From Lachnospiraceae bacterium (GTDB lineage Bacteria > Bacillota > Clostridia > Lachnospirales > Lachnospiraceae): a stretch of DNA of 38,697 nucleotides. The notes under the pieces are model-generated. The model was not told where the DNA came from. It ran no database searches and saw only the letters and a list, made by a program, of their open reading frames with translations. Numbering within the stretch: position 1 is the first letter of the stretch; the number at the start of each line of letters is the position of its first letter. Shown here in pieces: positions 21,289 to 36,515 of this stretch. Both the position numbers and the translations under genes were made by a program. Location of the stretch: contig CAADSM010000139.1 of assembly GCA_900751785.1 (NCBI GenBank), positions 1 through 38,697 of the forward strand, read 5' to 3'.

Positions 21289-21313
21289 GAAAAACAGCAG
21301 GCTCCCGCCTGCT
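21289..21313 (-). terminator. Terminator of the sensor operon
   Basis: On the - strand AGCAGGC-GGGA-GCCTGCT (21296-21302 with 21307-21313) has a GNRA-type loop and is followed by GTTTTTC. The hairpin begins inside the TAG stop codon of the sugar-binding protein gene. Confidence 0.8.
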
Positions 21314-22349
21314 ATTCTCCTCCCAGATAATCACCTACATTTTCCTGCGTCACTTTAGAATACGGCACATAGATATATTTACCGTTCTCGAACTCCAGCT
21401 CATCCATGCCCTCTCCTGTGACCAGCGCCTCCGCCAGCTTCGCCATCGCTTCTGCCTGCCCTGCCTTATCATTATAAACAGTTCCGGCAAGGTCTGACTC
21501 CGCAACTGCCTTCAGCCCCACATCCGTGCCGTCGATTCCAAAGAACAGGGGCATTCCGGCCTCGGTGCGGTTCAGCTTCTTATAGGCGTCGACAGCGCCG
21601 AGCGCCATATCATCATTATTCGCCAGGACAAGCTCTATCTCGTTCTGATACTGTCCGATCAGCTGCTGCATCCTGTTCTGCGCCTGCGCGCGGTTCCAGT
21701 TTGCAATGCCATAGCTGAGCTTCTCAAGCTTGATCCCCCTGCTCTTTATCGTGTCGACCGCGTTTTCCGTGCGGATGATCGCGTCCTGATGCCCGGGTTC
21801 CCCTTCCAGCACCACATACTGGATCTTCCCGTCATTATTGCGGTCGATCCGGTCATCCGCAAGTATCACTTCAGCCGCCACTTCTCCCTGCATCACGCCG
21901 GACTCCTTTGCATCTGCGCCCACGTAATACATCTGCTCCCATTGCAGCAGATCCTCTGCCACCGGTTCCCTGTTAAAGAAGATGATCGGGACATCATTTT
22001 CCCAGGCAAGGTCTATAACCTCAGACGGATCCGCCCTGTCTACAAGATTGACGCAGAGTACATTGCATCCCGCATTGATCAGCTCCCGCACCTGATCATT
22101 CTGCGTTCTCTGAGAGCCTGCTGCGTCCCGCACTGTCACGATCGTTTCCAGCTCGTCTGTTTCCAGCTCGTCCATCTGCTCCTTAAAGCAGTCGAGCAGC
22201 TCTCCCAGAAATGTATCGCTCTGGTTATAACATGTCACACCAACATACACTTTATCCGCCATCTCCTGCTGCTGTTCTCCGCAGGCACACAAAACCGATG
22301 CGCTCATACAGAAAAGCAGCCCTGTCGCCACAATTTTTCTGATCTTCAT
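21312..22349 (-). CDS. Galactose/glucose-binding lipoprotein, MglB-like, canonical domain order
   Basis: Extracellular lipoprotein of 345 residues with a lipobox ending LCAC near residue 22-24. The mature part follows the normal order of MglB: first strand VYVGVTCYNQSDTF, then CVNLVD, IIFFNREP, YYVGADAKESG, a calcium loop DRNNDGKIQ, GHQDAIIRT, ANNDDMALG and GIDGTD. Residues equivalent to the sugar-contacting Asp/Phe, Asn, His/Asp/Arg, Trp, Asn and Asp of E. coli MglB are present, so it should bind glucose or galactose. It is encoded with a kinase and regulator rather than with the transporter. A sensing role is therefore likely, and it also serves as an in-window reference for the permuted MglB-like protein at 30287-31567. 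Confidence 0.9.
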   Translation of the reverse strand: MKIRKIVATGLLFCMSASVLCACGEQQQEMADKVYVGVTCYNQSDTFLGELLDCFKEQMDELETDELETIVTVRDAAGSQRTQNDQVRELINAGCNVLCVNLVDRADPSEVIDLAWENDVPIIFFNREPVAEDLLQWEQMYYVGADAKESGVMQGEVAAEVILADDRIDRNNDGKIQYVVLEGEPGHQDAIIRTENAVDTIKSRGIKLEKLSYGIANWNRAQAQNRMQQLIGQYQNEIELVLANNDDMALGAVDAYKKLNRTEAGMPLFFGIDGTDVGLKAVAESDLAGTVYNDKAGQAEAMAKLAEALVTGEGMDELEFENGKYIYVPYSKVTQENVGDYLGGE

Positions 22350-22375
22350 ATATCTACCTCTGATCCACGCCTATC

Positions 22376-23350
22376 CTACTGACTCATCGTAAAAAGGAGT
22401 TCCTGGTTCTCCTTGGAAAACAGATTTTCTTTCCGCAGGACAGTATGAGACACTGTATGGTCTCCCGCCTCATGGAAATAATTCCTCAGATTTTTCGCGA
22501 TCTCTGTCAGGCTCTGATACCCGACATTAAATGCATCCGGGACGACCAGACATTCGACAGCACCGGTATCCACATAGTAGACCGCCTCCGTGGAATTGCC
22601 GATCCCATACACGACCGCTCCGTGCAGATTATTCGCCGCCGCGCTTGCGCCTGCCGCTGTAAGGCTGTTGTCATCTAGAGCGGCTACCAGATCCACCTTC
22701 GGCAGAGTATCCAGAGAAATGTCTTCCTCCTCTCCGAAAGAGCCATCGACTGTCCACGCGGTCACGGCACCGGTATCCTCCATGACGCTTTCAAATCCCT
22801 TTCTGAGATTGACCGCAGCTTCCGACTCCGACGTTTGGGATACGATCCCAAGCCTCTTGCCGTCCAGATTTCCATCATAATCTTTCAGCACTTCCTCCGC
22901 CAGTGTCTGCCCCATCGCATAGTTGTCTGCTTCGGTGACCGGCAGTACGGAAGCCTCTTTCTCAAGAGAGGCTGTTGAGCCTGCGAGCATGACCGGGACG
23001 CCGTTCTCTATCCTTTTCAGCATTGCCTCTGTTTCTGCTCCCGGCACCGGCTGTACAATGACCGCATCAGCCCCGTTGTCGATTTCCTGTTCGATCAAGC
23101 TCTCCTGCTCTTCAACAGACATCACGCCCTCTGTCCCCACGACGAACATCTCGATCTCCTGGTCCTCTGCCGCCATCCGGAGTCCATACTTGAACGCATC
23201 CCATTGATTGTCGTCCGAATCCTGGACGATCACGGAGACCTTATCCAGGTTTCTGCTGGTATTACCCCGCAGCATTACTATAGCCAGTATGAGGACCAGT
23301 AGCCCGAGCGCTCCTTCTATCAGAATAAACATTTTATGATTGTTCTTCAT
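22376..23350 (-). CDS. Membrane-anchored sugar-binding-protein-like sensor component
   Basis: Protein of 324 residues from the ATG at 23350, which has AGAGGA upstream; a TTG nine codons earlier is less likely. A single hydrophobic helix (about 8-28) acts as an uncleaved anchor instead of a lipoprotein signal. The rest is a type 1 periplasmic-binding fold related to RbsB: VSVIVQDSDDNQWDAFKYG, ADAVIVQPVPG, VPVMLAGS and a hinge-crossing GKRLGIVSQT. The gene overlaps the kinase gene by 17 bases, which suggests a stoichiometric partner that presents ligand to the kinase outside the cell. Similar binding-protein/kinase pairs are known, such as xylose sensing by XylFII-LytS. The ligand is not determined. 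Confidence 0.8.
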   Translation of the reverse strand: MKNNHKMFILIEGALGLLVLILAIVMLRGNTSRNLDKVSVIVQDSDDNQWDAFKYGLRMAAEDQEIEMFVVGTEGVMSVEEQESLIEQEIDNGADAVIVQPVPGAETEAMLKRIENGVPVMLAGSTASLEKEASVLPVTEADNYAMGQTLAEEVLKDYDGNLDGKRLGIVSQTSESEAAVNLRKGFESVMEDTGAVTAWTVDGSFGEEEDISLDTLPKVDLVAALDDNSLTAAGASAAANNLHGAVVYGIGNSTEAVYYVDTGAVECLVVPDAFNVGYQSLTEIAKNLRNYFHEAGDHTVSHTVLRKENLFSKENQELLFTMSQ

Positions 23351-25214
23351 CGCTGCTTCCTCTGTTTTCTCTGTCAATCATCTCTTCGCCGCCGAATCCA
23401 TATCCCTGCTCCAGTATCTTCCTGTTCTCTTCCGTGTACGGAACTGCAGGGATACAGATAGAGATCGTCGTTCCTTCATCCGGCTCGCTCTCTGCGATCA
23501 CCCCGTACTCTTTTCCGAAGAGAAGCTGGATACGGTTGTTCACATTTACAAGCCCCACTCCCGAGCCATGCTTGTGTACCCGGCTGCTGTCCGTCAGTAG
23601 AAGGCGTACCTGCTCTTCTGACATCCCGATCCCGTTGTCTTCCACAGAGAGGATCACTCTGCCTTCCTCCATCCTTCCCTTCACTCTGATCTCTCCGCAG
23701 TCATCCATGCCGCTCACCCCGTAGTTGATGGCATTTTCAAGTATGGGCTGCAGGATCAGCTTCACAGTACAGTAGGAACAGATCTCCGGATCCACATCAA
23801 AAGTAACAGAAAATGTATTCTTATACCGCACCTTCTGTATATTCATATAGCTCTGCGCATGCTGCAGCTCATCCTTTATGGTGATCACTGTATTTCCTTT
23901 GGAAAGACTGATCCGGAAAAGCTTGGCAAGCTGAGAGATCATAAAAGCCGCGTCGTCATTTCGCTCACCCTCGATCATCCATGTGATGGACTCCAGCGTA
24001 TTATAAAGGAAATGCGGATTGATCTGGCTCTGCAGGGCGTCGAGCTCACTCTTCCGCCTCTCATTCTGTTCCAGAACGATCTTTTTCATCAAGGAATCGA
24101 TCTGTTCATAAGAGCTCTGTATCGAATGCCCGAGATGCCTGATCTCCAATGATCCTCCGATGTAGATCTCCGGCTTTTCTCCCGCCTCGTACGCCTTGAC
24201 CGACTCATTGAGCTTCAGGATCGGGCTTGAGATCCTCACCGAAACGACCCGGTTGATCACGACGAGCATCATAGCCATCAGGAGCATGAGCATGGCAATG
24301 AAATACCGTATGTTGAGCATTCCCTCGGTGAACGTAGAATACGGGATCACTCCCACCAGCTTCCAGCCTGTGTAGCTGACGGTATTGACGATCACCTTTC
24401 TGTTCTCCCCGTCGAGAGACTCGTCATAGACGCCGTCCTTGTATTTCGCCGCTTCTGCATTGTTCTCCTCCACAATGCCGTCGCTGATCTGTATCTGGCT
24501 CGGATGATAGATGATCTCACCGTTACTGTCACATAAATAGTAATACTGCCCGCTGTTCGATTCATTGATCTGGTTCATCATCCGCGAGATGCTGGAATAA
24601 TCCATATCCACGAGCAGGACTCCCAGCTGGGACTCTCCATTCTCCGTCAGCTCGACAACACGGCTGAGAGAAATGACCCAGTAATAACGCATCGTACCAT
24701 CATCGAACAGGTTTTGGATATGGGGCGTGGAGAAATGCATGTTCTCCATCTCCTCCATCGCCTGCTGAAACCAATCCTGATTGGTGATATCCGGATCCTC
24801 CTTCTGCTGCGCCACCGGTTCCGCCGCCATCAGGCTCCCGAAACTGTTATATATTGCAATACTCCTAAGGCTGTCACTGTTCGCCTCATACAGCAGGTTC
24901 ATCCCCGACTGGATCGCTCTCTCCTGGTCCGGAAATGCTCCCTCTTTTACTACATTATAATAAACGGTATCCGAGATCTGCCTCATGCTCACCAGATAAT
25001 CTTCCAGCGTCTCTCCCGTCTGCTCCATCATTTTTTCTGTCGTCTGGATGATCTCCTGCCGCGACAAGGCAGAGAATCTCATGTACAGCACGATCCCCAG
25101 CGTCAGCATGATCGAGATCGAGATCACTGAGAATGCGATCATGATCGTGGTCTGCATTCCTCTCGGCTGAAGCTTTTTCAACTTTCCTAAATACTTATTT
25201 TTCACTTTCTGCAT
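23334..25214 (-). CDS. YesM-type sensor histidine kinase
   Basis: Membrane kinase of about 626 residues. Transmembrane helix 1 is near residues 22-45, followed by a Cache-like extracellular domain of about 230 residues, helix 2, and a HAMP-like linker (about 320-370). The His_kinase domain has the histidine in INPHFLYNTLES. The ATPase domain carries DNGIGM and GSGVGLVNVNNR. This is the LytS/YesM family that pairs with AraC-type regulators. The start is uncertain: ATG codons at 25286, 25247 and 25214 and a GTG shortly after are all in frame, and none has an ideal ribosome binding site. All overlap the 3' end of the regulator gene. The ATG at 25214 gives the smallest overlap, with CGGAG just before it. 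Confidence 0.9.
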   Translation of the reverse strand: MQKVKNKYLGKLKKLQPRGMQTTIMIAFSVISISIMLTLGIVLYMRFSALSRQEIIQTTEKMMEQTGETLEDYLVSMRQISDTVYYNVVKEGAFPDQERAIQSGMNLLYEANSDSLRSIAIYNSFGSLMAAEPVAQQKEDPDITNQDWFQQAMEEMENMHFSTPHIQNLFDDGTMRYYWVISLSRVVELTENGESQLGVLLVDMDYSSISRMMNQINESNSGQYYYLCDSNGEIIYHPSQIQISDGIVEENNAEAAKYKDGVYDESLDGENRKVIVNTVSYTGWKLVGVIPYSTFTEGMLNIRYFIAMLMLLMAMMLVVINRVVSVRISSPILKLNESVKAYEAGEKPEIYIGGSLEIRHLGHSIQSSYEQIDSLMKKIVLEQNERRKSELDALQSQINPHFLYNTLESITWMIEGERNDDAAFMISQLAKLFRISLSKGNTVITIKDELQHAQSYMNIQKVRYKNTFSVTFDVDPEICSYCTVKLILQPILENAINYGVSGMDDCGEIRVKGRMEEGRVILSVEDNGIGMSEEQVRLLLTDSSRVHKHGSGVGLVNVNNRIQLLFGKEYGVIAESEPDEGTTISICIPAVPYTEENRKILEQGYGFGGEEMIDRENRGSSDEEQS

Positions 25215-26805
25215 GCTCCGCTCTGTATTTTGAAGGTGATACGCCATACTTTCTTTTAAAAACGTAACTGAAATAATTCGGATCACTATAGCCTACGCTC
25301 TTCGCTATGATGTAGCTTTTCTCTTTCGTCTCAAGCAGCAGATGCGATGCTTTATCCATGCGGTAATCCGTCAGATACCCGACAAAAGATTTCCCCGTCT
25401 CCTTTTTGAAGATCGTCGAAAAGTAGGAATTGGATACTCCCAAATTCTCGCAGATGTCATCCAAGGAGAGCTTCTCATCCGAATAATTGTCCCGCACATA
25501 CTCCTCTGCTTTGAGCACAAAGGATTTTGTCGATCTGCTCCGCGCGGTGATCAGCTTATCATGGAACGTAAAGCTGACATCGGCAATCCACTTTCTGAGC
25601 GCGTCCGGCTCCATATTCGGAAGTCTGCCGTACAGCTCGCTCATATCCCCCGAAAAGGGTTCAACAACGATGTCATTATTCGCCGCGAACCTGTACAGGG
25701 CGCTGATCAGTTCCATGACCGCGATGTGATGCTGCGGAAACGACTTGACCGAAGCCGACATATGCTCCATATAGCTGTCAACCTCCTCAGCAATCTCCTC
25801 CCGCGAGCCCATACGGATCTTTTTGAACAGTCCGGACAGCTCCGTATCCGTTATCATACCGGTCTCTCCCATCTCCTGGGGCGCAATTTCCTTGATATTG
25901 ATCGCCCGGGATGCTCCGTAAATTCCCCTGTAGGACACGGCTTCTCTCGCACTGCTGTAAGACTGGGCAAGATCCATCATGCTGTCACAGACCTGACCGA
26001 TCCCCACTGTAACGACAGCGCCGATAATACGCAGGGCATATCTGCAAAATCTGTCGCATTCATCCGTTAATTCAGGAACTTCATTCTCGCCTCGGAGCTG
26101 AGCGAGCATTATTGTGTTTCCAAGATAAGAAAAATATTTCGCCCGCCATTTTTCACCAAGCCGTTCCTCCGCCTGCTTCTGAACAGATGTAGCCAGGAGC
26201 AGTGGATTCATATCCCCCGGTACCTGAGTGGAGGAAGTATGGATGACCAGACAGCAGAAGAAAGGACCCTCAAAAGAAATCTGATAATCCGCCAGGTACC
26301 TCGGGATTTCTTCCTCCCGTATCCTGCCCTCGATCAGCGTAGAATAAAAGTTCGCCTGCAGAAGCGGCAGCGAATCCATATAATACTGCTGCAGCACCGC
26401 CACGCTGCGCTTTTCACTGATCTCCTGATCCAGCTTGATCTTAAGCTGCGTAAACACGTTCGTCAGCTCCACGGAGTTCACCGGCTTCAGAATGTATTCC
26501 TCGACTTCAAGGTGCACGGCTTCTTTTGCATATTCAAACTCATCAAACCCTGTGAACAGAAGGATCTTAGTCGCCGGGTATTCGGTCTTGATACGGCTGG
26601 AGAGCTCCAGGCCGTCCATGTACGGCATCTTGATATCTGTCATGACCACGTCCGGCTGATACTCTTCCACCATCTCCAACGCCTTCACTCCGTTGTTCGC
26701 ATATCCGATGACCGAAAACCCGAGACCCTCCCAATTGATCTTTTTCATGATGACCTGGATCACTTCATCCTCATCATCCACTAAAAGCACTGTATATGTA
26801 TCCAT
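25195..26805 (-). CDS. YesN-type AraC-family response regulator
   Basis: Transcription regulator of 536 residues from the ATG at 26805, preceded by GGAGACG. The receiver domain (1-120) has acidic residues in LLVDDEDE, phospho-Asp in VVMTDIKMPYMDG and Lys in YILKPV. A middle region of about 270 residues is of unknown fold, as is usual in YesN proteins. The AraC DNA-binding domain (about 430-536) shows the two helix-turn-helix segments, with CENLGVSNSYFSTIFKKETG and SVGYSDPNYFSYVFKRKYG. It leads the operon that encodes the kinase and two binding proteins. The adjacent mgl operon is the likely target. Confidence 0.92.
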   Translation of the reverse strand: MDTYTVLLVDDEDEVIQVIMKKINWEGLGFSVIGYANNGVKALEMVEEYQPDVVMTDIKMPYMDGLELSSRIKTEYPATKILLFTGFDEFEYAKEAVHLEVEEYILKPVNSVELTNVFTQLKIKLDQEISEKRSVAVLQQYYMDSLPLLQANFYSTLIEGRIREEEIPRYLADYQISFEGPFFCCLVIHTSSTQVPGDMNPLLLATSVQKQAEERLGEKWRAKYFSYLGNTIMLAQLRGENEVPELTDECDRFCRYALRIIGAVVTVGIGQVCDSMMDLAQSYSSAREAVSYRGIYGASRAINIKEIAPQEMGETGMITDTELSGLFKKIRMGSREEIAEEVDSYMEHMSASVKSFPQHHIAVMELISALYRFAANNDIVVEPFSGDMSELYGRLPNMEPDALRKWIADVSFTFHDKLITARSRSTKSFVLKAEEYVRDNYSDEKLSLDDICENLGVSNSYFSTIFKKETGKSFVGYLTDYRMDKASHLLLETKEKSYIIAKSVGYSDPNYFSYVFKRKYGVSPSKYRAEHAESEK

Positions 26806-26845
26806 ATCTTTTCGTCTCCATGTGCGCATGTTATCACATCGCATT

Positions 26846-26884: not shown

Positions 26885-26919
26885 CTGTACAGAAAAAGGC
26901 TCTGTACAGAAAAAAGGCT
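26885..26919. repeat. Tandem 17/18-base repeat next to the mgl terminator
   Basis: CTGTACAGAAAAAGGCT (26885-26901) is followed directly by CTGTACAGAAAAAAGGCT (26902-26919). The copies differ by one A. The second copy provides the T-run and first arm of the terminator, so the duplication may have arisen by slippage. Each copy also holds the small palindrome CTGTACAG. Confidence 0.7.
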
Positions 26920-26937
26920 GCCGCAGTGCGGCAGCCT
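26909..26937 (-). terminator. Terminator of the mgl operon
   Basis: On the - strand a near-perfect GC-rich stem (AGGCTGCCGC/GCGGCAGCCT, 26915-26937) is followed by TTTTTT. It lies 13 bases after the permease stop codon and before the sensor operon promoter. Confidence 0.9.
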
Positions 26938-26949
26938 GAGAAAAATCCA

Positions 26950-28614
26950 TTATTTCTTCTGAACGTATTTCAGACAGTCAAGTGTTACTGCTACAAGGAT
27001 GATGATACCTGAGAATACGAACTGAAGGTTCGTGTCGATACCAAGAATCGTAAGAGAGTAGGTCAGCGCTGTGAAGATAAGAACACCAACAACGACACCT
27101 GAAATCTTACCGATACCACCGGTGAAGGATACACCACCTACTACGCAGGCTGCGATTGCGTCTGTCTCCCAGCCCTGTCCATAAGCTGCGGATCCGGATC
27201 CAACCATTCTCGCACACTCAAGCCAGGAACCAAATCCATAGAGGATACCAGCCAGAATGAATGCACCGATTGTTACAGCAAATACGGAAATACCTGAAAC
27301 CGATGCTGCTTCCGGGTTACCGCCTACAGCGTACAGGTTCTTACCGAATTTTGTCTTGTTCCAGATAAACCATACGATCACTACTGCTGCTACTGCCCAG
27401 ATGATAATCGTCGGGAAACCGTTGATCTTCGGGATAACCATATTCGGAACCGTCGGCTCGATCGCACCGAATGATACACCCTTTGTTGCATAGGTAACGA
27501 TACCGAAGATCATCAGCATGTTCGCCATCGTAGAGATGAACGGATGCATCTTGAACTTAGCAGTAAAGAAACCTGCGATCGTTGTAAAGAACGTACACAG
27601 TACGATACATACTACCAGGGCCAGGATCATTCTTGCCCCGATCGGCATACCGGTAAAATCGAAAATGTGTCCAAAAACGCCGCCGGTATTGATACCCTGA
27701 TGCATGATAATTGTCGCCGCTGTCATACCCATACCTACCATACGTCCGATGGAGAGGTCGGTACCTGCAAGGAGGATCAGACCAGCAACACCAAGTGCCA
27801 GGAACATTCTCGGCGAAGCCTGCTGAAGAATGTTGAGGACGTTGTTATATGTAAGAAGCGGTGATCCTTTGACGATCGGTGTAATGATACAGAGTGCGAT
27901 GAACACCAGAAGAATGGCGATATACAGACCGTTCTTCAGGAGGAATGCTCTCCGGTTGAATGTATACTTGTAGTTTTCCCAGTTCTGTGAAGCCGTCTCC
28001 GCAAATGTAAACTTTGACATGCGGAGCAGGTCGATCAGATGATACTTGTGTGCAAACGCCGCATGTCTTCTGTCCTTGATCGACTGATAGTCTTTGTCCA
28101 GATCCAGCTTTGCATCGAAGCAGCGGTTTTTATAAACATACTTCTCATCTTTGATCTCCTGATGATCTGAAAGCTTAGCAAGTGCTGCCTTGTGCTCTTT
28201 TTCAAGCTCTGCCAGCTTCTTGGTATATTTCTCTTTTGCAAGGACCTTTTCCTGTGCGCAGCTCGCTTTTACCGGCTCATAGTATTCTTTGTCAAAATGA
28301 GCTTTCAGATATCCCTCTGCATCAGCGATCAGCTTTGAGATCTGATCTTTGTTCTGCGCCTCTACAGCCTTAGCATTGTCAAGCTCCTTTCTGAGCTTGG
28401 TGATCTTTGATTCTTTTTCCTCTTTCGACAGTGTACGGTCTCTTTTGATACCGTCAATCCTGTTCTGAATAGCGACAACCTTGTCTGTACCATCTACTCT
28501 GAGGCTGTCGATCTTATCCTGAATTTTACCGACATATTCATCTATCGGCTGACGCAGCTTCAATTCCTGCTCAGCCGTAAGAATCTTACTGTTTCCATTA
28601 GCCATATCCATCAT
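26950..28614 (-). CDS. mglC: MglC-like sugar ABC permease with long coiled-coil N-terminal extension
   Basis: Membrane permease of the RbsC/MglC family. The transmembrane part begins near residue 228 (LYIAILLVFIALCIITPI) and contains typical blocks such as LALGVAGLILLAGTDLSIGRM and YAVGGNPEAASVSGI, ending at 554. About 220 residues in front are highly charged and helical, rich in Lys, Glu and Asp, with heptad-like segments (KITKLRKELDNAKAVEAQ, KLAELEKEHKAALAKL). E. coli MglC (about 336 residues) has no such part. The extension should be cytoplasmic and might contact the ATPase or a regulator. The start is ambiguous among ATGs at 28614, 28611 and 28605; GGGAG spacing favours 28605. It is the last gene of mglB-mglA-mglC, 10 bases after mglA. 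Confidence 0.9.
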   Translation of the reverse strand: MMDMANGNSKILTAEQELKLRQPIDEYVGKIQDKIDSLRVDGTDKVVAIQNRIDGIKRDRTLSKEEKESKITKLRKELDNAKAVEAQNKDQISKLIADAEGYLKAHFDKEYYEPVKASCAQEKVLAKEKYTKKLAELEKEHKAALAKLSDHQEIKDEKYVYKNRCFDAKLDLDKDYQSIKDRRHAAFAHKYHLIDLLRMSKFTFAETASQNWENYKYTFNRRAFLLKNGLYIAILLVFIALCIITPIVKGSPLLTYNNVLNILQQASPRMFLALGVAGLILLAGTDLSIGRMVGMGMTAATIIMHQGINTGGVFGHIFDFTGMPIGARMILALVVCIVLCTFFTTIAGFFTAKFKMHPFISTMANMLMIFGIVTYATKGVSFGAIEPTVPNMVIPKINGFPTIIIWAVAAVVIVWFIWNKTKFGKNLYAVGGNPEAASVSGISVFAVTIGAFILAGILYGFGSWLECARMVGSGSAAYGQGWETDAIAACVVGGVSFTGGIGKISGVVVGVLIFTALTYSLTILGIDTNLQFVFSGIIILVAVTLDCLKYVQKK

Positions 28615-28624
28615 TCTCCCTCAA

Positions 28625-30133
28625 TTATAGGTATTTTGCACTGAGCCTCAACAGCTCTTCCTGATCTGTATCTTTGGTGTTCACGATTCCGGAAAGATGC
28701 CCGTTTGACATAACGCCGATACGGTTCGTGATTCCGAGAATCTCCGGCATCTCAGAGGAAACAACGATGATCGTCTTTCCCTGTTTTGCCATCTGGATGA
28801 TCAACTCATAGATCTCATATTTCGCTCCTACGTCGATTCCTCGGGTAGGTTCATCCATCATAAATACCTGAGGCTCACGCTCCAGCCATCTTCCGAAGAT
28901 GATCTTCTGCTGGTTTCCTCCTGAAAGGCTGGTGATCATATCATCCGGTCCCATACACTTGGTATGCATGACCTTGATCTCTTTTGCAGTCGCATTCACC
29001 ATCTTCGTATCCGAAAGCGCCACACCGGTCTTATACTGATTCAGGTTCGCAATGGTGGTGTTAAAGGTAAGGTCCGTCTTCATGAACAGACCGTTGGCCT
29101 TTCGCTCCTCAGTGATCATGGCAAAGCCATGCTCCATAGCTTCCCTTGCATTATTAAAGTTCATCAGCTTGTTCTTGAAGTAAACACGTCCCGCTGCTCT
29201 GGTCCGCACACCGAAGATCGTCTCCAGGAGCTCTGTACGCCCTGCACCTACCAGTCCGTACAGACCGAAGATCTCACCTTCTCTTACATCAAATGAAATA
29301 TCCTGCAGATGAGGCTCATACTTTGTAGACAGGTGCTGCACGGACAGGACTACATCCTTCGGTGTATTGTCAACAGGCGGGAACCTGTTTTCGAGGGAAC
29401 GTCCAACCATGGCTGCGATCAGTTCGTTCATATCCGTATCGCTGGCATGTTTTGTCATGACCAGATTACCGTCTCGAAGAACTGATATATCATCGCAGAT
29501 CTCAAAGATCTCATCCATTTTATGAGAGATATAGATCAGCGCGATGCCCTGTTCTTTCAGCATCCTCATCATCTCGAAGAGCTTGTCTACTTCCTGTACT
29601 GTCAGGGAGGATGTCGGCTCATCGAGAACGATCACCTTTGAGTTATAGGAGATTGCTTTTGCAATCTCGCACATCTGTCTCTGTGAAACAGACATATTGC
29701 GCATCGGCTGTGTGAGGTTCACAGTCATGCCCAGCCTTCTGAAAAGCTCAGAAGCTTCTTTCTTCATTCTTCCCTCATCAATCACGCCCAGGGAATTGAC
29801 CGGATAACGTCCAAGGAACAGATTGTCCATTACATTTCTTTCCAGACACTGATTCAGCTCCTGATGAACCATCGCAATTCCGTTTTCAAGAGCATCCTTC
29901 GGTCCGGAGAAGCTTACTTCTTTACCGTCAAGGTAGATGTTTCCCTCGTCCTTCTGATATGTACCGAAAAGACATTTCATCATCGTCGACTTGCCGGCTC
30001 CATTCTCCCCCATAAGACCCATGACAGTTCCGCGCCTCACATCAAGATTGATGTGGTCCAGAACTCTGTTTCGGCCAAAGGACTTGCTCATACCGCGTAT
30101 TGATAAGACGATATCATCTTTCTTATCTGCCAT
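28625..30133 (-). CDS. mglA: Galactose/methyl galactoside ABC transporter ATPase MglA
   Basis: Sugar-import ATPase of 502 residues with two fused nucleotide-binding domains, as usual for MglA/RbsA. The first has Walker A GENGAGKST (about 40-48), VIVLDEPTSSL and a degenerate signature MSVSQRQ. The second has LVGAGRTEL in place of Walker A, the signature LSGGNQQK and MDEPTRGID. Both halves show the family asymmetry. The ribosome binding site AGGAG precedes the ATG. It lies between the binding-protein and permease genes. A perfect hairpin separates it from mglB, so mglB mRNA may be more abundant. Confidence 0.95.
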   Translation of the reverse strand: MADKKDDIVLSIRGMSKSFGRNRVLDHINLDVRRGTVMGLMGENGAGKSTMMKCLFGTYQKDEGNIYLDGKEVSFSGPKDALENGIAMVHQELNQCLERNVMDNLFLGRYPVNSLGVIDEGRMKKEASELFRRLGMTVNLTQPMRNMSVSQRQMCEIAKAISYNSKVIVLDEPTSSLTVQEVDKLFEMMRMLKEQGIALIYISHKMDEIFEICDDISVLRDGNLVMTKHASDTDMNELIAAMVGRSLENRFPPVDNTPKDVVLSVQHLSTKYEPHLQDISFDVREGEIFGLYGLVGAGRTELLETIFGVRTRAAGRVYFKNKLMNFNNAREAMEHGFAMITEERKANGLFMKTDLTFNTTIANLNQYKTGVALSDTKMVNATAKEIKVMHTKCMGPDDMITSLSGGNQQKIIFGRWLEREPQVFMMDEPTRGIDVGAKYEIYELIIQMAKQGKTIIVVSSEMPEILGITNRIGVMSNGHLSGIVNTKDTDQEELLRLSAKYL

Positions 30134-30228
30134 TCTCTTTACTCCTGTACATGTATTTTTCAGTATTTAAAAAACATTTCCTTACTATACTTACATAGTC
30201 ATCTTCCGACACGTTTTGCCTTAAATAA

Positions 30229-30260
30229 ATTATTAGGGAGAATTTCTTCTCCCTAATAAT
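30229..30260 (-). terminator. Perfect 14-base intercistronic hairpin between mglB and mglA
   Basis: ATTATTAGGGAGAA (30229-30242) and its exact complement (30247-30260) flank a 4-base loop. On the - strand the following TTTATTTAAG is T-rich but not a clean T-run. It lies 27 bases after the mglB stop. Such hairpins often act as partial terminators or protect the upstream mRNA, raising binding-protein output over the ATPase. Confidence 0.75.
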
Positions 30261-30286
30261 CTTCTGACATCCTTATTTAATGGATA

Positions 30287-31567
30287 TTACTGACTAAGAA
30301 TAGATGTGTAGGAAGCCGCATTATCTGTCTTAACCATGTTAATAGCAAACGCATCATACTGGCTCGGATTTCCGAGACGGTTTGTAATATTGGACTCTGT
30401 CTGTCCGTCACCGCCGATGTACTCAACATCAAGATTAAGCAGATCATCGTACTTCTCAAGCAGCGGCTGATATGTAGAGCTAAGGAAGTTATCAGCAGCA
30501 TTGTAGATATTCAGCCAAACTGATTTTGTCGGATGCTCGCTTTCATCCAGCTGGTTGGATACAGGCTCCCAAACCACTGTAGAATCTGTAAATTCTGTAT
30601 AGTTAGCAGCTGTAACTGCCACGTTCAATGCATAATAGGAACGTTCCTCTTCTCTATATACATAAACGTCTTCTGACAGTACGTTTCCTGCTTCGTCCGC
30701 TGTACCGATACCTGTATCGATATCTACGCCGTCAAGTGCGTTACGAAGAACACGGAGTGTCAGGTAAGCCTGTACGTCTGCATGCTGGCTGATCGTTCCG
30801 CCGTAGCCCTCTGCGATAGCTGCAACCGCGTCGCTGTTCGCATCATATCCGAATGTCGGAACCTTGTTATCTTTTGACCAAGCATTGAACATTGACATTC
30901 CCATACCATCGTTATTGGAAACAACAACGTCGATCTGATCACCGAAGGATGATGCCCATGTACCGATCGCGTTACCTGCTGTAGCGGCATCCCACGTAGC
31001 ACCTGCGGAGTTCTTCATCTCCTGGGAAGCGAGCTCACGTACTGTGTATGTCTTTCCGTTTGCCTCGATTGTTCCGTCTGTAACAATGCTTGAAGATCCG
31101 TCTGTGTTCGTACCTACTGCCTCGCTGTTGATCGCTCCGTTTGCCTCAACACCTGTTCCAAGTGCTGAACGAACGCCTCTTGTACGAGCGATAGAATCAT
31201 TGTGTCCGATATCGCCGATTGCAAGGACATATCCGATAACGCCGTCGCCGTTGCGGTCGATCGTATCAATATTTTCCTGGATGTACTCCAGAACCATCTG
31301 TCCCTGAAGCTCAGCACCCTGGTTTGCATCGAATCCTACATAATATGTATCATCGTTGAAGTTCAGGGCTGTCGTATCAAGCTCTCCTGTGGAGCTGTTG
31401 GACGGCTGGCGGTTGAACCATACTAACGGCTTGTCCGCATTTGCAACCTCTGATGTAGAGCCTCCGTTGTCTGATGAGCTTCCTGAGCTGGATTCTCCAG
31501 ATCCGCATGCGGTTGCCGATAATGCAAGTACCGCTGCGAGTGTCAATAAAACGATCTTTTTCTTCAT
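30287..31567 (-). CDS. mglB: MglB-like sugar-binding lipoprotein, apparently circularly permuted
   Basis: Binding protein of the mgl transporter, 426 residues from the ATG at 31567 (AAGGAGG upstream). Lipobox Cys is about residue 21, followed by a Ser/Gly linker. The mature chain begins with PLVWFNRQPS (about 47-56), which aligns with the middle of MglB (VPVVFFNKEPS). It continues with YYVGFDANQG, calcium loop DRNGDGVIG, GHNDSIAR, NNDGMG and GYDANSD, plus an insertion of about 45 residues near 137-182. The normal first segment appears last: VWLNIYNAADNFLS (about 350-363) and AFAINMV (406-412), ending at 426. Sugar-contact residues are mostly kept, although the equivalent of Asn256 is His. It should bind glucose or galactose. 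A longer reading from 31711 lacks a signal peptide at its start and is rejected. Confidence 0.88.
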   Translation of the reverse strand: MKKKIVLLTLAAVLALSATACGSGESSSGSSSDNGGSTSEVANADKPLVWFNRQPSNSSTGELDTTALNFNDDTYYVGFDANQGAELQGQMVLEYIQENIDTIDRNGDGVIGYVLAIGDIGHNDSIARTRGVRSALGTGVEANGAINSEAVGTNTDGSSSIVTDGTIEANGKTYTVRELASQEMKNSAGATWDAATAGNAIGTWASSFGDQIDVVVSNNDGMGMSMFNAWSKDNKVPTFGYDANSDAVAAIAEGYGGTISQHADVQAYLTLRVLRNALDGVDIDTGIGTADEAGNVLSEDVYVYREEERSYYALNVAVTAANYTEFTDSTVVWEPVSNQLDESEHPTKSVWLNIYNAADNFLSSTYQPLLEKYDDLLNLDVEYIGGDGQTESNITNRLGNPSQYDAFAINMVKTDNAASYTSILSQ

Positions 31568-31778
31568 ATATACGTTTCCTCCTTCTTTCGGCACACTTTT
31601 GCCGTGCCCTTTATTGATAATGACAGTATACTCCATAAGCCCGAGAGAAAACATAGAATATTTTTTGCACTTTATTGAAATTTTTAAGATTTCATTGGGC
31701 ACATCCGCCAAAATTCGACTGTATTTTTGTTGTCAGTTATTGTTTCGGTACAGTTTTTAGCGGTTTTTTGTATTATCA
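31568..31778. promoter_or_regulatory. Upstream region of mglB (leader and probable promoter)
   Basis: On the - strand a TATACT (31625-31630) could be the mgl -10 box, with only a poor -35 (TGTTTT) 17 bases upstream. That is consistent with activator control, for example by the AraC-type regulator encoded downstream. A small hairpin GGCAC/GTGCC lies in the leader just before the ribosome binding site. No CcpA-type site was convincing. Confidence 0.35.
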
Positions 31779-31913: not shown

Positions 31914-33704
31914 TTGGCATTTTCAATCCATTTTTTAATATGTAATATCATTGTCGGGATCCTGCTGGGGATCATACTTTTCTTCAAGAAGATTTTAAAG
32001 AAACAGGTTACCGCCGACGTACAGTATTATATATGGTACATTTTCGCTGCGGCCCTTATTCTTCCGTTTGTGCCGTACACACCATTTGAACCCGGCCGGC
32101 TGCTGTCAAAGATCAGAGACCTGTTTACTCCGGCCGCGTCCCTTTCAACGGGCATCCCCGCCAGACAGTCTGTCGATATGACAGCCCCGGCACAGCTCGG
32201 ACTGTCCGACCTGGCCGCTTCTTTCAGCGGCACGTCGTTCCGTACACTGGGCGTTATCCTCACAGTTATATGGGCGGCCGGATGTTTTGTCACAGCGGGC
32301 TTTTTCCTATATCAAATTTTTAAGATCCGCAGGATCCGAAAAGCCGCTTATCTGATCACGCCAGGAAATGAACCGGAGCTGTATTCATGCTGCCTCTCCT
32401 GCATGCAGGAGCTGAAGATCGGACAGCAGATTTCCCTATATGCCTCCTGCGCGCTCACCAGTCCGGTGTCCTACGGGCTGTTCCGCCCGAAGGTCATCAT
32501 CCCGCAGGATATGGACATCGTCCTTGGAGCCGATGATGTGCGCTTTATTTTTCTTCACGAGCTGCAGCATTTAAAACACAGAGACGCCGCGCTGAATTAT
32601 ATTTCCTGCGTTCTCCAGATTATCTATTGGTTCAACCCGCTGGTATGGTACGGCTTCCGGATCATGCAGAAGGACCGCGAGATCGCCTGCGACCACTCCG
32701 TCATCCGCACGGTCGGCAGAGAGCGCGCCGTCAGCTATGGGCACACACTGATCCGCTATGCAGAAAAGCTGCACCGGAACGCCTTTCTCTCCCCGCTTTC
32801 CAGCCTGGGCGGAGAAAAAAGCGTCATCGTGCAGCGGGTAAAGGAAATCGCAGATTACAAAGCCGAAACGCCGGCGAGAAGGTTCAAGAGCTTCTGTACC
32901 CTGTCGCTTGCCGTCATCCTTGTATATACGGCGAGTCCGTTCCTCACGGCCTATGCCGCGGAGAACTCCCCCTACGAGCTCTCCGGCAGAAATGTGGAGG
33001 AAATAGATCTGTCATCTTATTTCCACGGAAACGACGGCGCTTTTGTACTGTATGACATGACGGAGGACAGCTATCTTATCTATAATGAAGAATTGAGCAC
33101 AAAACGCGTCTCACCGGATTCTACATACAAAATATACAGTGCCCTGTTTGCGCTCGAGGAAGGGATCATCACCCCCGGATCTTCCGAACGGGCATGGGAC
33201 GGCACAGAATATCCCTTTGACTCCTGGAACCAGGATCAGAGCCTTGAGACAGCCATGCAGAACTCTGTGAATTGGTACTTCCAGAATCTGGACGCCCGGA
33301 CCGGATACACCGCTCTTTCTTCTTATTATAGCCGCATCTCCTACGGCAACTGTGACCTGACCGCCGGGATCGGCAGCTACTGGGCCGAGTCTTCTCTGAA
33401 GATCTCGCCGGCAGAACAGACCGACCTCCTGGCCGGTCTCCTGCAGAACAAGTGGGGATTCAGCGTGGAAAACATCCAGGCCGTCAAGAACGCCATGTTT
33501 ATCGGCGACACTCCTGTCGGAAAACTCTACGGCAAGACCGGCACAGGTTCCGACGGCACCCAGAATATAAACGGGTGGTTTGTAGGCTTCCTTGAGGATA
33601 ACGGCCACGTTTACTGCTTTGCGGCCAATCTGCAGAACGGACCGGACGCCTCTGGAAACGCGGCATCCGAGATCGCAATAGATATTCTGAACGATATACT
33701 ATAA
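31914..33704 (+). CDS. blaR1: BlaR1-like beta-lactam sensor/signal transducer (M56 peptidase plus penicillin-binding domain)
   Basis: Membrane receptor of 596 residues starting at TTG 31914, with GGAGG 9 bases upstream. Helices near 5-25, 36-56 and 112-135 lead to a cytoplasmic zinc peptidase of family M56, with HELQH at 215-219 and REIACDHSVI (Glu about 256). A further helix is at about 326-348. The extracellular domain (about 360-596) resembles class D beta-lactamase sensors: STYK (403-406), SVN (451-453) and KTGTG (541-545). Acylation of Ser403 by a beta-lactam would activate the peptidase to inactivate a BlaI repressor. No blaI gene is adjacent, which is unusual. The neighbouring convergent PBP gene has BlaI-like operators and may be the output. 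Confidence 0.9.
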   Translation: MAFSIHFLICNIIVGILLGIILFFKKILKKQVTADVQYYIWYIFAAALILPFVPYTPFEPGRLLSKIRDLFTPAASLSTGIPARQSVDMTAPAQLGLSDLAASFSGTSFRTLGVILTVIWAAGCFVTAGFFLYQIFKIRRIRKAAYLITPGNEPELYSCCLSCMQELKIGQQISLYASCALTSPVSYGLFRPKVIIPQDMDIVLGADDVRFIFLHELQHLKHRDAALNYISCVLQIIYWFNPLVWYGFRIMQKDREIACDHSVIRTVGRERAVSYGHTLIRYAEKLHRNAFLSPLSSLGGEKSVIVQRVKEIADYKAETPARRFKSFCTLSLAVILVYTASPFLTAYAAENSPYELSGRNVEEIDLSSYFHGNDGAFVLYDMTEDSYLIYNEELSTKRVSPDSTYKIYSALFALEEGIITPGSSERAWDGTEYPFDSWNQDQSLETAMQNSVNWYFQNLDARTGYTALSSYYSRISYGNCDLTAGIGSYWAESSLKISPAEQTDLLAGLLQNKWGFSVENIQAVKNAMFIGDTPVGKLYGKTGTGSDGTQNINGWFVGFLEDNGHVYCFAANLQNGPDASGNAASEIAIDILNDIL

Positions 33705-33728: not shown

Positions 33729-36515
33729 TTATCGCGCAGCATCCGCCTGTTCTGCCTGCTGGCCGACATTAAAATATGACTCAAAGATTTCTCTTCCGCA
33801 TTCCACTGCGCAGCCCGCTTCATATCCGTTAGCGATCCGGACCGCCACCGCGATCTCCGGCTCATCTGCCGGGGCATAGCCGACGAACAGTCCGTGGTCC
33901 GGTCTTGTCCTCGACTCCTGAGCCGTTCCCGATTTGCCCGCGGCAGGGATCGGAAAGCCCTCGAAGATTCCCGTGCTCTGCGCATACTGCTCCATCCCTG
34001 TGTGTACAGCCTCCCATATTTCATCCGGAAGCTCCACCGCGCTTTCCTGCTCCGGCTCCTGCCGGATCCCGTCAATCTGGTCCACAAGAGAGAGGCGGAA
34101 GCTTGTCCCTCTGTTTGCCAGCGTTGTCACATACCTTCCCAGCTGGACCGTCGAGAAGTTGTTCGTCCCCTGACCTATGGCTGAGGGGATAGCATAGCTG
34201 TCTGTCACCTGCGGGCTGCTCTCAGTCAGCTCGATGCCGCTCTTTTTGTCCAGATCAAACATCTCTGCATACTTCTGTATATATTCGAGCGCCTGTCCGT
34301 CAGAAAAAGTCTGCTGACCCTTCATCCCAAGCCGATAAGAGACCTCACACAGGTAATCGTTGCAGGAATGCTGCAGCGCGTCCGCCGCGCCGGCAACATT
34401 TCCATGTCCGGAGTGATTCCAGCAGCGCAGCGGCGGATCGACCTTATCGAAAACGCCGTCGCACATAACCGGGGTTGATACGCCCGTCACACCTTCTGAC
34501 AGACCGGCAATGATGGTGACCGGCTTGAACGTCGAGCCGGGAGCCGAGAGCTGCTGAGTGGCTCTGTTGTACAGCGGAAGGGCGGCGTTGTTATAAATTC
34601 TGTAATAATACGCATCGTCCATCTGATTTGCCAGCCGGTTGTTGTCGTACCCAGGATAGCTGACGCAGGCAAGCACTTTTCCGGTGTCCGCATCTGTGAC
34701 AACGGCCGAGCCGGAGCATAGATCCAGCGCAAGATCTCCCGGAGTGATCTCCAGACGCTGGATCTTCCGAAGGACAAGCTCATAGGAAGATATGCTCCCC
34801 CGCTGCCATTCTGCGAAATCTCCGTCCTGTGTATCGAGCACGCCCTGGTCGTACAGGATCATGCACACCTGATCTGGCGTGATTTCATCCCGAAGTACCA
34901 TATATTTGTAGATCGTCTCCTCGAACTCCGGATTTCCCTGAAGCTCCACCACAATCTCTTCCGTTACCAGGCTATAGATTTCTTCCTGCCGCAGATACCC
35001 ATTTTCTCCGCTTAGAAGATCCGATGAGATCCCCCCTTCTTGGATCGCGCCGTTCAGATATTCATTGACAGAGATGTCGCCACTCGCCCACTTTTCGTAT
35101 AATTCCGTGTTTTTATCCAGGCTGCCGCTGTCAAGGATGCCCAGACTTCCCGCGATGAGGCCGAGATATTCCTGCATCTCCTCATCCAGCCCGGCATACA
35201 CCGCTTCCGGATCATTCAGCACAGCCTGTATCTCCCCGAGTACCTGGTCCCTTCTCTCCGAGAAACGCTGATAAACCTCCCGCTCGGTTTCCGAAGCCCC
35301 GCCTTCCTGAAAATGCGAGGTATCGATCAGTCCGTTTGTCAACAGCGCCGTATATACGTCATACACAGGGATCCGGATCTCAGTCGTATCATTTACAGCC
35401 GTTTTGTCAAACGTCTTTGCATTGATCAGATTTTCCACCAGGATATCTGCGATCTTTCTCTCCAGCGTCTCATATGCTTTCTGCTGAAGGTCCATATCAA
35501 TGCTGAGATATACATCCCTGCCCGCCCGCGGCTCTTCCGTCACTCCCAGGTCCTGGACGGTCCGTCCCATATTGTCAATGTAGACTTCCTGTCTGCCGTT
35601 CTCCCCCTGGAGCACATCATCGAGATACTGCTCCAGCCCTGCCTTGCCGACAATGGACTCCGCGGTATATCCTTCGCCCTTTTCTTCCAGCTCCGCCGCG
35701 GAGATCTTCCCGGTATATCCGAGGATCGATGCAAATGCCTCGCCTCCCTCGTAAACTCTTATGCTTTCTTCCGAGACATCCACGCCCGGGAGCTCTGCCT
35801 CGCTCTCCAGGAGAGCAGCCGCCGTTTCTTCCGAGACATCTCTTGCAACAGTCACAGGAAGATATTTCTGATATTCCTGCAGAGACAGCGCATAGCGCAC
35901 GCTCACAAGCTCCAGGACTTCCTCCTGCTCAAACTGGTCCGGAAGCCCGTACTGTGCTTTTTCCTCATCTGTATAGCTTTTATCATCCTGCGCGTAGATG
36001 CAGAAACGGTCCGAAAGATCGGCGATCACCTGCTCTGCATCCGAGCTTTTCTCTTCCTCGGTCATATCCTCGACACTCCGCCTCCCATAGACGTCCGCCT
36101 TGAATCTGTCGAGTTCAAATCCATCCGCTGTAAACCGAAAGCCGCCGTTCTCGTCCGCCGTGATCTTCAGATTATTTTCCGGAGAATCACCATGCTCTTT
36201 GATAAGACGTATCGCTTTGTAGATCCTGCTGTTCAGATCCAGCTGCCGTTCTCTGTCTGTTTTATAATTCTCTTGATCTTCTATTGTGGCAGAATAAACT
36301 ATTTTATTTCCTGCAAGAAGCTTTCCGTTTTTGTCATAGATATTTCCTCTGGTCCCGGGGAGGGTGATCTCCCTCTTGATCTGCAGCCGAAAGTTCTTTG
36401 CATATTCTTCACCCTTGATGATCTGCAGGTAAAACACCCGGGCAGTCAGTATCAGGAACATAACTGCAAATACCGCGATCAGCACGAAACTCCGCGCCGC
36501 CTTTTTCTTATTCAT
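33729..36515 (-). CDS. Class B penicillin-binding protein (PBP2-like transpeptidase), enlarged
   Basis: Peptidoglycan DD-transpeptidase of 928 residues, longer than typical PBP2 (600-700). An N-terminal membrane anchor (about 9-29) is followed by the dimerisation/pedestal region with RGNIYDKNGKLLA and the PBP2 motif GKAGLEQYLDDVLQG. Active-site motifs are STFK with Ser661, SCN with Ser717 and KSGT with Lys861. Between DVYLSIDMDLQQKAYE and GSAVVTDADTGKVLA lies an extra acidic helical segment of about 250 residues (roughly 355-605). The gene sits behind a promoter with BlaI-like operators and is convergent with blaR1, 24 bases apart. It may be an inducible, beta-lactam-tolerant PBP; resistance itself is not shown by the sequence. 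Confidence 0.92.
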   Translation of the reverse strand: MNKKKAARSFVLIAVFAVMFLILTARVFYLQIIKGEEYAKNFRLQIKREITLPGTRGNIYDKNGKLLAGNKIVYSATIEDQENYKTDRERQLDLNSRIYKAIRLIKEHGDSPENNLKITADENGGFRFTADGFELDRFKADVYGRRSVEDMTEEEKSSDAEQVIADLSDRFCIYAQDDKSYTDEEKAQYGLPDQFEQEEVLELVSVRYALSLQEYQKYLPVTVARDVSEETAAALLESEAELPGVDVSEESIRVYEGGEAFASILGYTGKISAAELEEKGEGYTAESIVGKAGLEQYLDDVLQGENGRQEVYIDNMGRTVQDLGVTEEPRAGRDVYLSIDMDLQQKAYETLERKIADILVENLINAKTFDKTAVNDTTEIRIPVYDVYTALLTNGLIDTSHFQEGGASETEREVYQRFSERRDQVLGEIQAVLNDPEAVYAGLDEEMQEYLGLIAGSLGILDSGSLDKNTELYEKWASGDISVNEYLNGAIQEGGISSDLLSGENGYLRQEEIYSLVTEEIVVELQGNPEFEETIYKYMVLRDEITPDQVCMILYDQGVLDTQDGDFAEWQRGSISSYELVLRKIQRLEITPGDLALDLCSGSAVVTDADTGKVLACVSYPGYDNNRLANQMDDAYYYRIYNNAALPLYNRATQQLSAPGSTFKPVTIIAGLSEGVTGVSTPVMCDGVFDKVDPPLRCWNHSGHGNVAGAADALQHSCNDYLCEVSYRLGMKGQQTFSDGQALEYIQKYAEMFDLDKKSGIELTESSPQVTDSYAIPSAIGQGTNNFSTVQLGRYVTTLANRGTSFRLSLVDQIDGIRQEPEQESAVELPDEIWEAVHTGMEQYAQSTGIFEGFPIPAAGKSGTAQESRTRPDHGLFVGYAPADEPEIAVAVRIANGYEAGCAVECGREIFESYFNVGQQAEQADAAR

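Follow-up and report, generated by a model that had tools for sequence, protein, structure and literature searches.

The gene at 30287..31567 (minus strand) of a 38,697-nucleotide contig from a Lachnospiraceae bacterium (NCBI GenBank assembly GCA_900751785.1, contig CAADSM010000139.1; this whole stretch is referred to as the window) raises the question of whether its product, an MglB-like binding lipoprotein here called mglB-c, is a circular permutant, and if so whether it stands alone. An initial annotation, made from the DNA letters, proposed that a lipoprotein signal and a Ser/Gly linker run straight into PLVWFN and that the last ~80 residues are the first segments of canonical MglB. The order of the Pfam matches, rotation scans, segment and body alignments, and collinearity with a crystallized relative bear out both the permutation and the break point. 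It is thus very probable that residues 347-426 are the counterpart of the initial strand-helix units in canonical MglB, and that mglB-c is a true circular permutant, belonging to the TpMglB-2 subfamily (Type Ic / Cluster Bc) and acting as the binding lipoprotein of an mgl-type importer.

The mglB-c open reading frame (ORF) begins with an ATG at 31567, has AGGAGG upstream, and ends with a stop codon finishing at 30287, encoding a predicted glucose/galactose-binding lipoprotein of 426 residues, whose best PDB match is 5jx2 (TpMglB-2, E 4.7e-91). A TTG start at 31711, the choice of the ORF caller, is less likely than this ATG. Residues 1-44 (31436..31567) comprise a signal peptide, a lipobox with Cys21 and a Ser/Gly linker, with a predicted local distance difference test score (pLDDT) below 50 at residues 1-42, and KPLVWFNRQPS comes directly after the linker. 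The body, residues 45-330 (30578..31435), corresponds to canonical MglB from the strand PLVWFN (N91 of E. coli MglB, EcMglB) to the canonical C-terminus (hhalign E 1e-36, canonical columns 88-312). A new and poorly conserved connection follows, residues 331-346 (30530..30577), where identity to the T. pallidum protein is 9% over 11 aligned residues, compared with 47% before it and 45% after it; it is probably the counterpart of the fourth hinge or extended segment of TpMglB-2. The chain ends with the permuted segment, residues 347-426 (30290..30529), taken as the equivalent of strand-helix units 1-3 in canonical MglB on the basis of a PF18610 match, alignments and a predicted model, in which a strand-helix unit occurs three times (strands at 348-355, 379-386 and 406-411).

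In Pfam searches, PF13407 covered only profile positions 93-256 of mglB-c, and was followed by PF18610 (Peripla_BP_7, which models only this segment) at residues 347-417 with E 8e-43. When the mglB-c sequence was rotated, the PF13407 match crossed the seam and covered 54-256 (75.5 vs 69.2 bits). Rotation scans, for which there was no shuffle control, raised the score of mglB-c from 183 unrotated to 226 at best against the canonical-order paralog in the window, and from 219 to 253 against E. coli MglB. TpMglB-2 gained similarly against E. coli MglB (279 to 317) and less against the window paralog (245 to 256). The canonical pair used as a control, the paralog and E. coli MglB, peaked near zero rotation (512 unrotated, 518 best). 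This paralog, the lipoprotein encoded at 21312-22349, was matched by PF13407 over 1-257, which agrees with the normal order ascribed to it initially. The canonical MglB equivalog model NF011924 gave mglB-c 90.9 bits, below its cut-off of 420, and the strand order was rotated.

The moved segment was also compared on its own. The last 82 residues of mglB-c aligned to approximately residues 1-77 of mature canonical MglB with a local score of 47, which was reached by 3 and by 4 of 1000 shuffles. A profile of the permuted segment (198 sequences, 4 retained by the hhalign filter) placed its positions 5-75 onto positions 4-79 of a profile of 53 canonical sequences, with a score of 28.0 and E 7e-4. 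Column shuffles (n = 500) had a mean of 13.0, a standard deviation of 2.5 and a maximum of 23.2, so that 0 of 500 reached 28.0; the reversed profile scored 14.3. Canonical profiles of 60 and 8 sequences gave the same placement, scoring 28.9 and 24.8 against 60-shuffle maxima of 22.6 and 20.2. Among comparisons with single proteins, z was 3.0 for MglB, 3.2 for the window paralog and 1.8 for the second binding protein of the window. On the segment alignments and profile shuffles, the reading of the C-terminus as an unrelated domain is rejected.

Several observations weigh against this assignment. The permuted segment carries a modest sequence signal, the hhalign probability being 26% despite the E value, and the single-sequence scores for MglB and the paralog (18.3 and 20.0) were matched by the best of 60 shuffles (18.4 and 20.0), the paralog match covering 16 columns only. 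The Pfam search proposed in the initial annotation, with the C-terminal segment alone, returned PF18610 only, and no PF13407 match even at E 1. The optimum of the rotation scan is flat, with residues 260-352 nearly tied, and the confidence of the model is moderate, with pLDDT below 50 at 388-394 and 413-419 within the segment. The weak profile probability and the shuffle-level scores would also fit an alternative considered in the 2016 report of TpMglB-2 (PMC4990184), namely that the C-terminal segment derives from another gene and came to share the structure of the MglB N-terminus by convergence; that report gives 13% identity between the TpMglB-2 and E. coli MglB segments and leaves such an origin possible. 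We consider it very unlikely. The profile match falls on the expected canonical positions, three canonical profiles agree on it, and the segment shares with E. coli MglB the motif IYxxxDNF carrying both sugar contacts, D359 and F361 being the equivalents of EcMglB D14 and F16. Five other E. coli type-I sugar-binding proteins (RbsB, AlsB, XylF, AraF and YtfQ) do not align at the segment (z ≤0.2), and their N-termini are rejected as its source, as far as single sequences go. The profile results, the motif and the conservation at the D14 and F16 positions favour, on a modest signal, a true permutation in which MglB's own N-terminus was moved, the point left open in 2016.

The initial annotation did not say whether such a permutation had been reported before. 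It had: the permutation of TpMglB-2, its glucose binding and its Gram-positive gut relatives were published in 2016. PMC4990184 describes the crystal structure of TpMglB-2 (Tp0684), whose topology is circularly permuted and for which the subclass was named Type Ic / Cluster Bc; its relatives fall into a Spirochaetes clade and a Gram-positive/gut clade. By the criterion that PMC4990184 itself applies, mglB-c is homologous to TpMglB-2 in a collinear manner over more than 90%, with matching N-termini. Residues 45-425 of mglB-c are collinear in one stretch with residues 20-385 of 5jx2_A, and the model aligns over 39-426 with 6bgc_B. TpMglB-2 (PDB 5jx2, 6bgc and 6bgd) and mglB-c share the rotated order, the calcium site, the sugar contacts, the lipoprotein anchor and, at the sequence level, the extra linker, and treponemal-type proteins (n = 15 in the alignment) are 44-48% identical to mglB-c. 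The two differ in that mglB-c has a longer Ser/Gly linker and ~14 additional residues near 141-160, and in that the EcMglB D14 position is Asp in mglB-c and Asn in T. pallidum. E. coli MglB resembles mglB-c in its homology over both lobes, its sugar contacts, its calcium loop and its mglBAC operon, but differs in the position of the first three N-lobe strand-helix units in the chain. A literature search of openly licensed papers, mostly titles and abstract openings, found no natural permuted MglB outside PMC4990184, nor any description of the permease extension or the cassette exchange set out below; the parts of PMC3534369 and PMC11214629 covered do not concern mglB-c.

To survey homologs, as the initial annotation had recommended, 441 relatives were recognized in genome contigs, and 80 distinct loci were retained, in which the same rotated order recurs. 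PF18610 was present in 32 of the 299 genomes sampled from the family Lachnospiraceae, to which the Claveliimonas bilis genome (G001, carrying locus L004) belongs, and in 2 of 398 genomes drawn across its phylum, one of these being G001 itself. It occurred once per genome at 140-150 bits, with no intermediate scores. Two permuted operons, L062 and L066, are labelled as Butyricicoccaceae and Oscillospiraceae, and two scans of viral contigs found no relative. Permuted mglBAC was also seen on plasmids, at L137 (8926-13414) on Treponema saccharophilum plasmid pTS2 and at L138 (8878-13432) on an Agathobacter rectalis 252-kb plasmid; genes for integrase and transposase lie within a few kb of the Agathobacter rectalis cassette. 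That the gene is simply mis-ordered in the record, through an assembly or frame artefact, has a negligible probability. Errors do occur in this family, as one relative (P0033, 525 aa) has two internal duplications and is probably an assembly error. The artefact reading is nevertheless refuted, because the same order is found in other loci: in the 80 distinct loci almost the entire query is matched at a single place, the 32 Lachnospiraceae genomes carry PF18610 in stop-free open frames, L004 comes from a record labelled as a complete genome, and the treponemal protein has been crystallized. The permuted protein thus confirms and widens the 2016 description, as a natural circular permutation of a solute-binding protein that is stable in gut Lachnospiraceae.

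The initial annotation stated that calcium-loop and sugar-contact residues are mostly kept, which proved correct. Each of the ten sugar contacts of E. coli MglB has a counterpart in mglB-c, and nine are identical; the tenth, N256, is replaced by Q261, a Gln as in T. pallidum. The calcium loop DRNGDGVIG (residues 104-112; 31232..31258) was mapped from D71, N73, D75 and I77 of TpMglB-2. D104, N106, D108 and D213 are kept, and V110 occupies the position of the main-chain ligand in the T. pallidum protein. In an alignment of 49 sequences, drawn from the 80 loci plus 240 listed database proteins, no contact position varies other than 359, where one sequence has Asn, so that the D14 equivalent is Asp in 48 of 49. 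For TpMglB-2, PMC4990184 reports a KD of 1.1 μM for glucose and 33 μM for galactose, and the N19A, D195A and F313A variants gave no glucose-binding heat; F313 sits in the permuted segment. The same source describes a chain that crosses the hinge a fourth time and a protein that compacts upon binding.

By analogy with these systems, mglB-c would bind glucose and galactose and support their transport in this organism. Its lipid-anchored N-terminus would lead into the fourth strand of the canonical N lobe, after which the chain would build the remainder of both lobes and cross the hinge for the fourth time via the poorly conserved linker. The N lobe would be closed last, by the canonical first three strand-helix units. 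The sugar would then be held between the lobes by the residues used in E. coli MglB, here supplied from both chain ends, and the loaded binding protein would hand it to MglC/MglA.

Why the chain should be arranged in this way was addressed in PMC4990184 by an adaptive hypothesis, in which permutation suits membrane tethering since anchoring the canonical N-terminus to the membrane would put strain on the sugar site. Permuted proteins do look tethered, as a pattern match picks out a lipobox-like Cys in 74 of the 79 sequences taken from retained loci and in 118 of the 119 that a treponemal search yielded. Yet visual inspection of seven canonical-order MglBs of the same phylum shows six with a lipoprotein-type Cys and, ahead of strand 1, a flexible linker, and tethering therefore does not require permutation. 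This weakens tethering as a sufficient cause, and we regard the hypothesis as rather improbable. Linker lengths did not distinguish the permuted proteins from the canonical ones in a comparison in which the start motif was unreliable for the 13 paralogs scored.

The mgl operon setting claimed initially was confirmed, with MglA and MglC relatives lying downstream on the same strand. mglA (28625..30133) encodes an ATPase of 502 aa and mglC (26950..28614) a permease of 554 aa, assigned with Pfam and NCBIfam. The best NCBIfam models gave 670.6 bits for MglA and 271.4 bits for MglC, both under the curated cut-offs of 828 and 386, and in trees the two proteins group with canonical MglA and MglC against Rbs, Als, Xyl and Ara proteins.

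The permease is enlarged. E. coli MglC has 336 aa, and RbsC, AlsC, XylH, AraH, YtfT and YjfF have 321-393 aa. The additional 215 aa are at the N-terminus of MglC (27970..28614), contain no transmembrane-like segment, and consist of 39% D/E/K/R. An AlphaFold2 model showed long helices in the extension, with mean pLDDT per 10-residue block of 80-93 over residues 11-190 and 72 over 191-200; for the model overall, pLDDT was 63 and the predicted template modelling score (pTM) 0.40, with the membrane part poorly modelled. We do not call the extension a coiled coil on the heptad-period test, because it gave no peak at 3.5, and Pfam and PDB searches with the extension gave no match above cut-off. Given its charge, the lack of a transmembrane segment, the model and the usual topology of such permeases, the extension is probably cytoplasmic. 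The initial annotation raised a change in docking to the permease as a possible effect of the permutation; the permease is indeed unusual here, but its extension would lie away from where the binding protein docks. Its position and helical content suggest that it may have a regulatory or clustering role.

The extension accompanies the permuted binding protein. MglC was present in 74 of the 80 loci; three copies are cut by the contig end, and among the other 71, 69 have at least 500 aa and two (L063 and L067) are split into two frames. Five of the six loci lacking MglC end before or inside mglA. In the remaining one, L020 (6192-7229), mglA stops at residue 346 after a permuted mglB and there is no mglC in the next 3.7 kb, representing either a misjoin or a true interruption. 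When the 299 Lachnospiraceae genomes were searched with the extension alone (E up to 1e-5), the 32 genomes that matched were exactly the PF18610 set, and the other 267 had neither. The weak spots in this pairing are G606 and G646, where only a piece at a contig end matches, and G404, where the match is in two pieces; in G404 and G606, the binding protein and the extension are on separate contigs. The Treponema saccharophilum plasmid encodes a permuted binding protein, MglA and a 562-aa MglC, whose extension resembles that of the window over residues 15-96 (30%, E 9e-7 in a two-sequence comparison) and is weakly alike elsewhere. A search with the treponemal extension retrieved 78 proteins, all of 500-572 aa and all with the permease domain; proteins below ~310 aa were not retrievable, so that a free-standing form may also exist. 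According to PMC4990184, tp0686 is the putative cognate permease gene of TpMglB-2, and Tp0686 homologs are similarly distributed.

Canonical-order mgl operons differ in this respect. MglC has 333-353 aa in all seven such loci from the same phylum, and 327-343 aa in nine of 11 from the Lachnospiraceae; in the other two it has 409-410 aa, the added residues being hydrophobic and not resembling the extension. A search of 10 family genomes with canonical operons gave no match to the extension, and it occurred in none of the 19 canonical-order mglBAC operons examined, E. coli included. The pairing of permuted MglB and extended MglC is strong evidence of joint inheritance. It is not evidence of functional need, because one event inherited together could explain it. 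The strict pairing in the genomes sampled and the evidence for MglB's own N-terminus as the source of the segment are additions beyond the 2016 report, and the pairing, together with the cassette exchange described below, is the part worth following.

To place the cassette, trees of its transporter components were examined. Permuted operons, Treponema included, form one clade in each of the MglA and MglC trees (100/100). In the MglA tree and in a joined MglA and MglC tree (9 permuted, 19 canonical and one outgroup row; support 96/90), the permuted operons branch from within the canonical ones, adjacent to E. coli, and the permuted state therefore looks derived, though its exact place is unsure. 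Against this, a tree of the MglC core gave permuted and canonical proteins as two sister groups, with a long permuted branch (1.26).

Eight loci in seven genomes (L152-L159) have the same layout as the window, with a binding protein, MglA, MglC, a regulator, a kinase and two binding proteins. In contrast to the window, their MglB is canonical, matching EcMglB from residue 20-26 on, and their MglC has 327-410 aa and lacks the 215-aa extension. In the kinase tree, window-type kinases nest among the kinases of L155, L157, L158 and L159 (100/99), while the transporters of L155-L159 belong to a different clade from the permuted transporters. This suggests that transporter cassettes were exchanged beside their regulators, and perhaps repeatedly. 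Exchange the other way round is possible, the trees being midpoint-rooted. Among 61 loci with a kinase match, the kinase lies downstream in 50 and upstream in 11; six of 10 kinases upstream of the permuted cassette group with that of L156 and four are apart, the eleventh (L063) having been dropped as too short.

The trees point to a single origin of the permuted cassette and to exchange between it and a canonical cassette inside regulatory operons. A fuller scenario, whose chances we put slightly below even, is that one event, or several in close succession, in an mgl ancestor produced both the permuted MglB and the ~215-aa cytoplasmic helical domain of MglC. This jointly remodelled transporter would be inherited as one indivisible cassette in Lachnospiraceae, in neighbouring Clostridia and in Treponema, and would have replaced canonical mglBAC in existing two-component-regulated operons, perhaps repeatedly, and the added domain may regulate or cluster the transporter. 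Because canonical operons of the same layout exist in the same bacterial family, exchanging parts between the two would allow a test of how sugar uptake is affected by the permutation and by the permease domain.

The remaining features of the operon are also on the minus strand. Between mglB and mglA lies a 16-bp hairpin followed by an AT-rich stretch (30227..30262; -27.7 kcal/mol over 86 nt, z -5.8), a possible attenuator or mRNA stabilizer, perhaps setting the ratio of binding protein to transporter. A terminator-like hairpin (26915..26937) follows mglC, and no repeats of at least 20 bases were found in the operon. Beyond it is a regulatory module (21312..26844) of an AraC-type response regulator, a Cache sensor kinase, a TorT-like binding protein and the canonical-order MglB-like lipoprotein.

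At 21312-25286, the TorT-like and MglB-like binding proteins, both of canonical order, adjoin the Cache sensor kinase. By analogy, this arrangement suggests a sugar-sensing three-part system, which we take to be like XylFII-LytS; XylFII-LytSN was among the structural fold matches. Divergent from mglB, on the plus strand, is a gene for a BlaR1-like protein with Peptidase_M56 and transpeptidase domains (31914-33704), after which a penicillin-binding protein is encoded on the minus strand (33729-36515).
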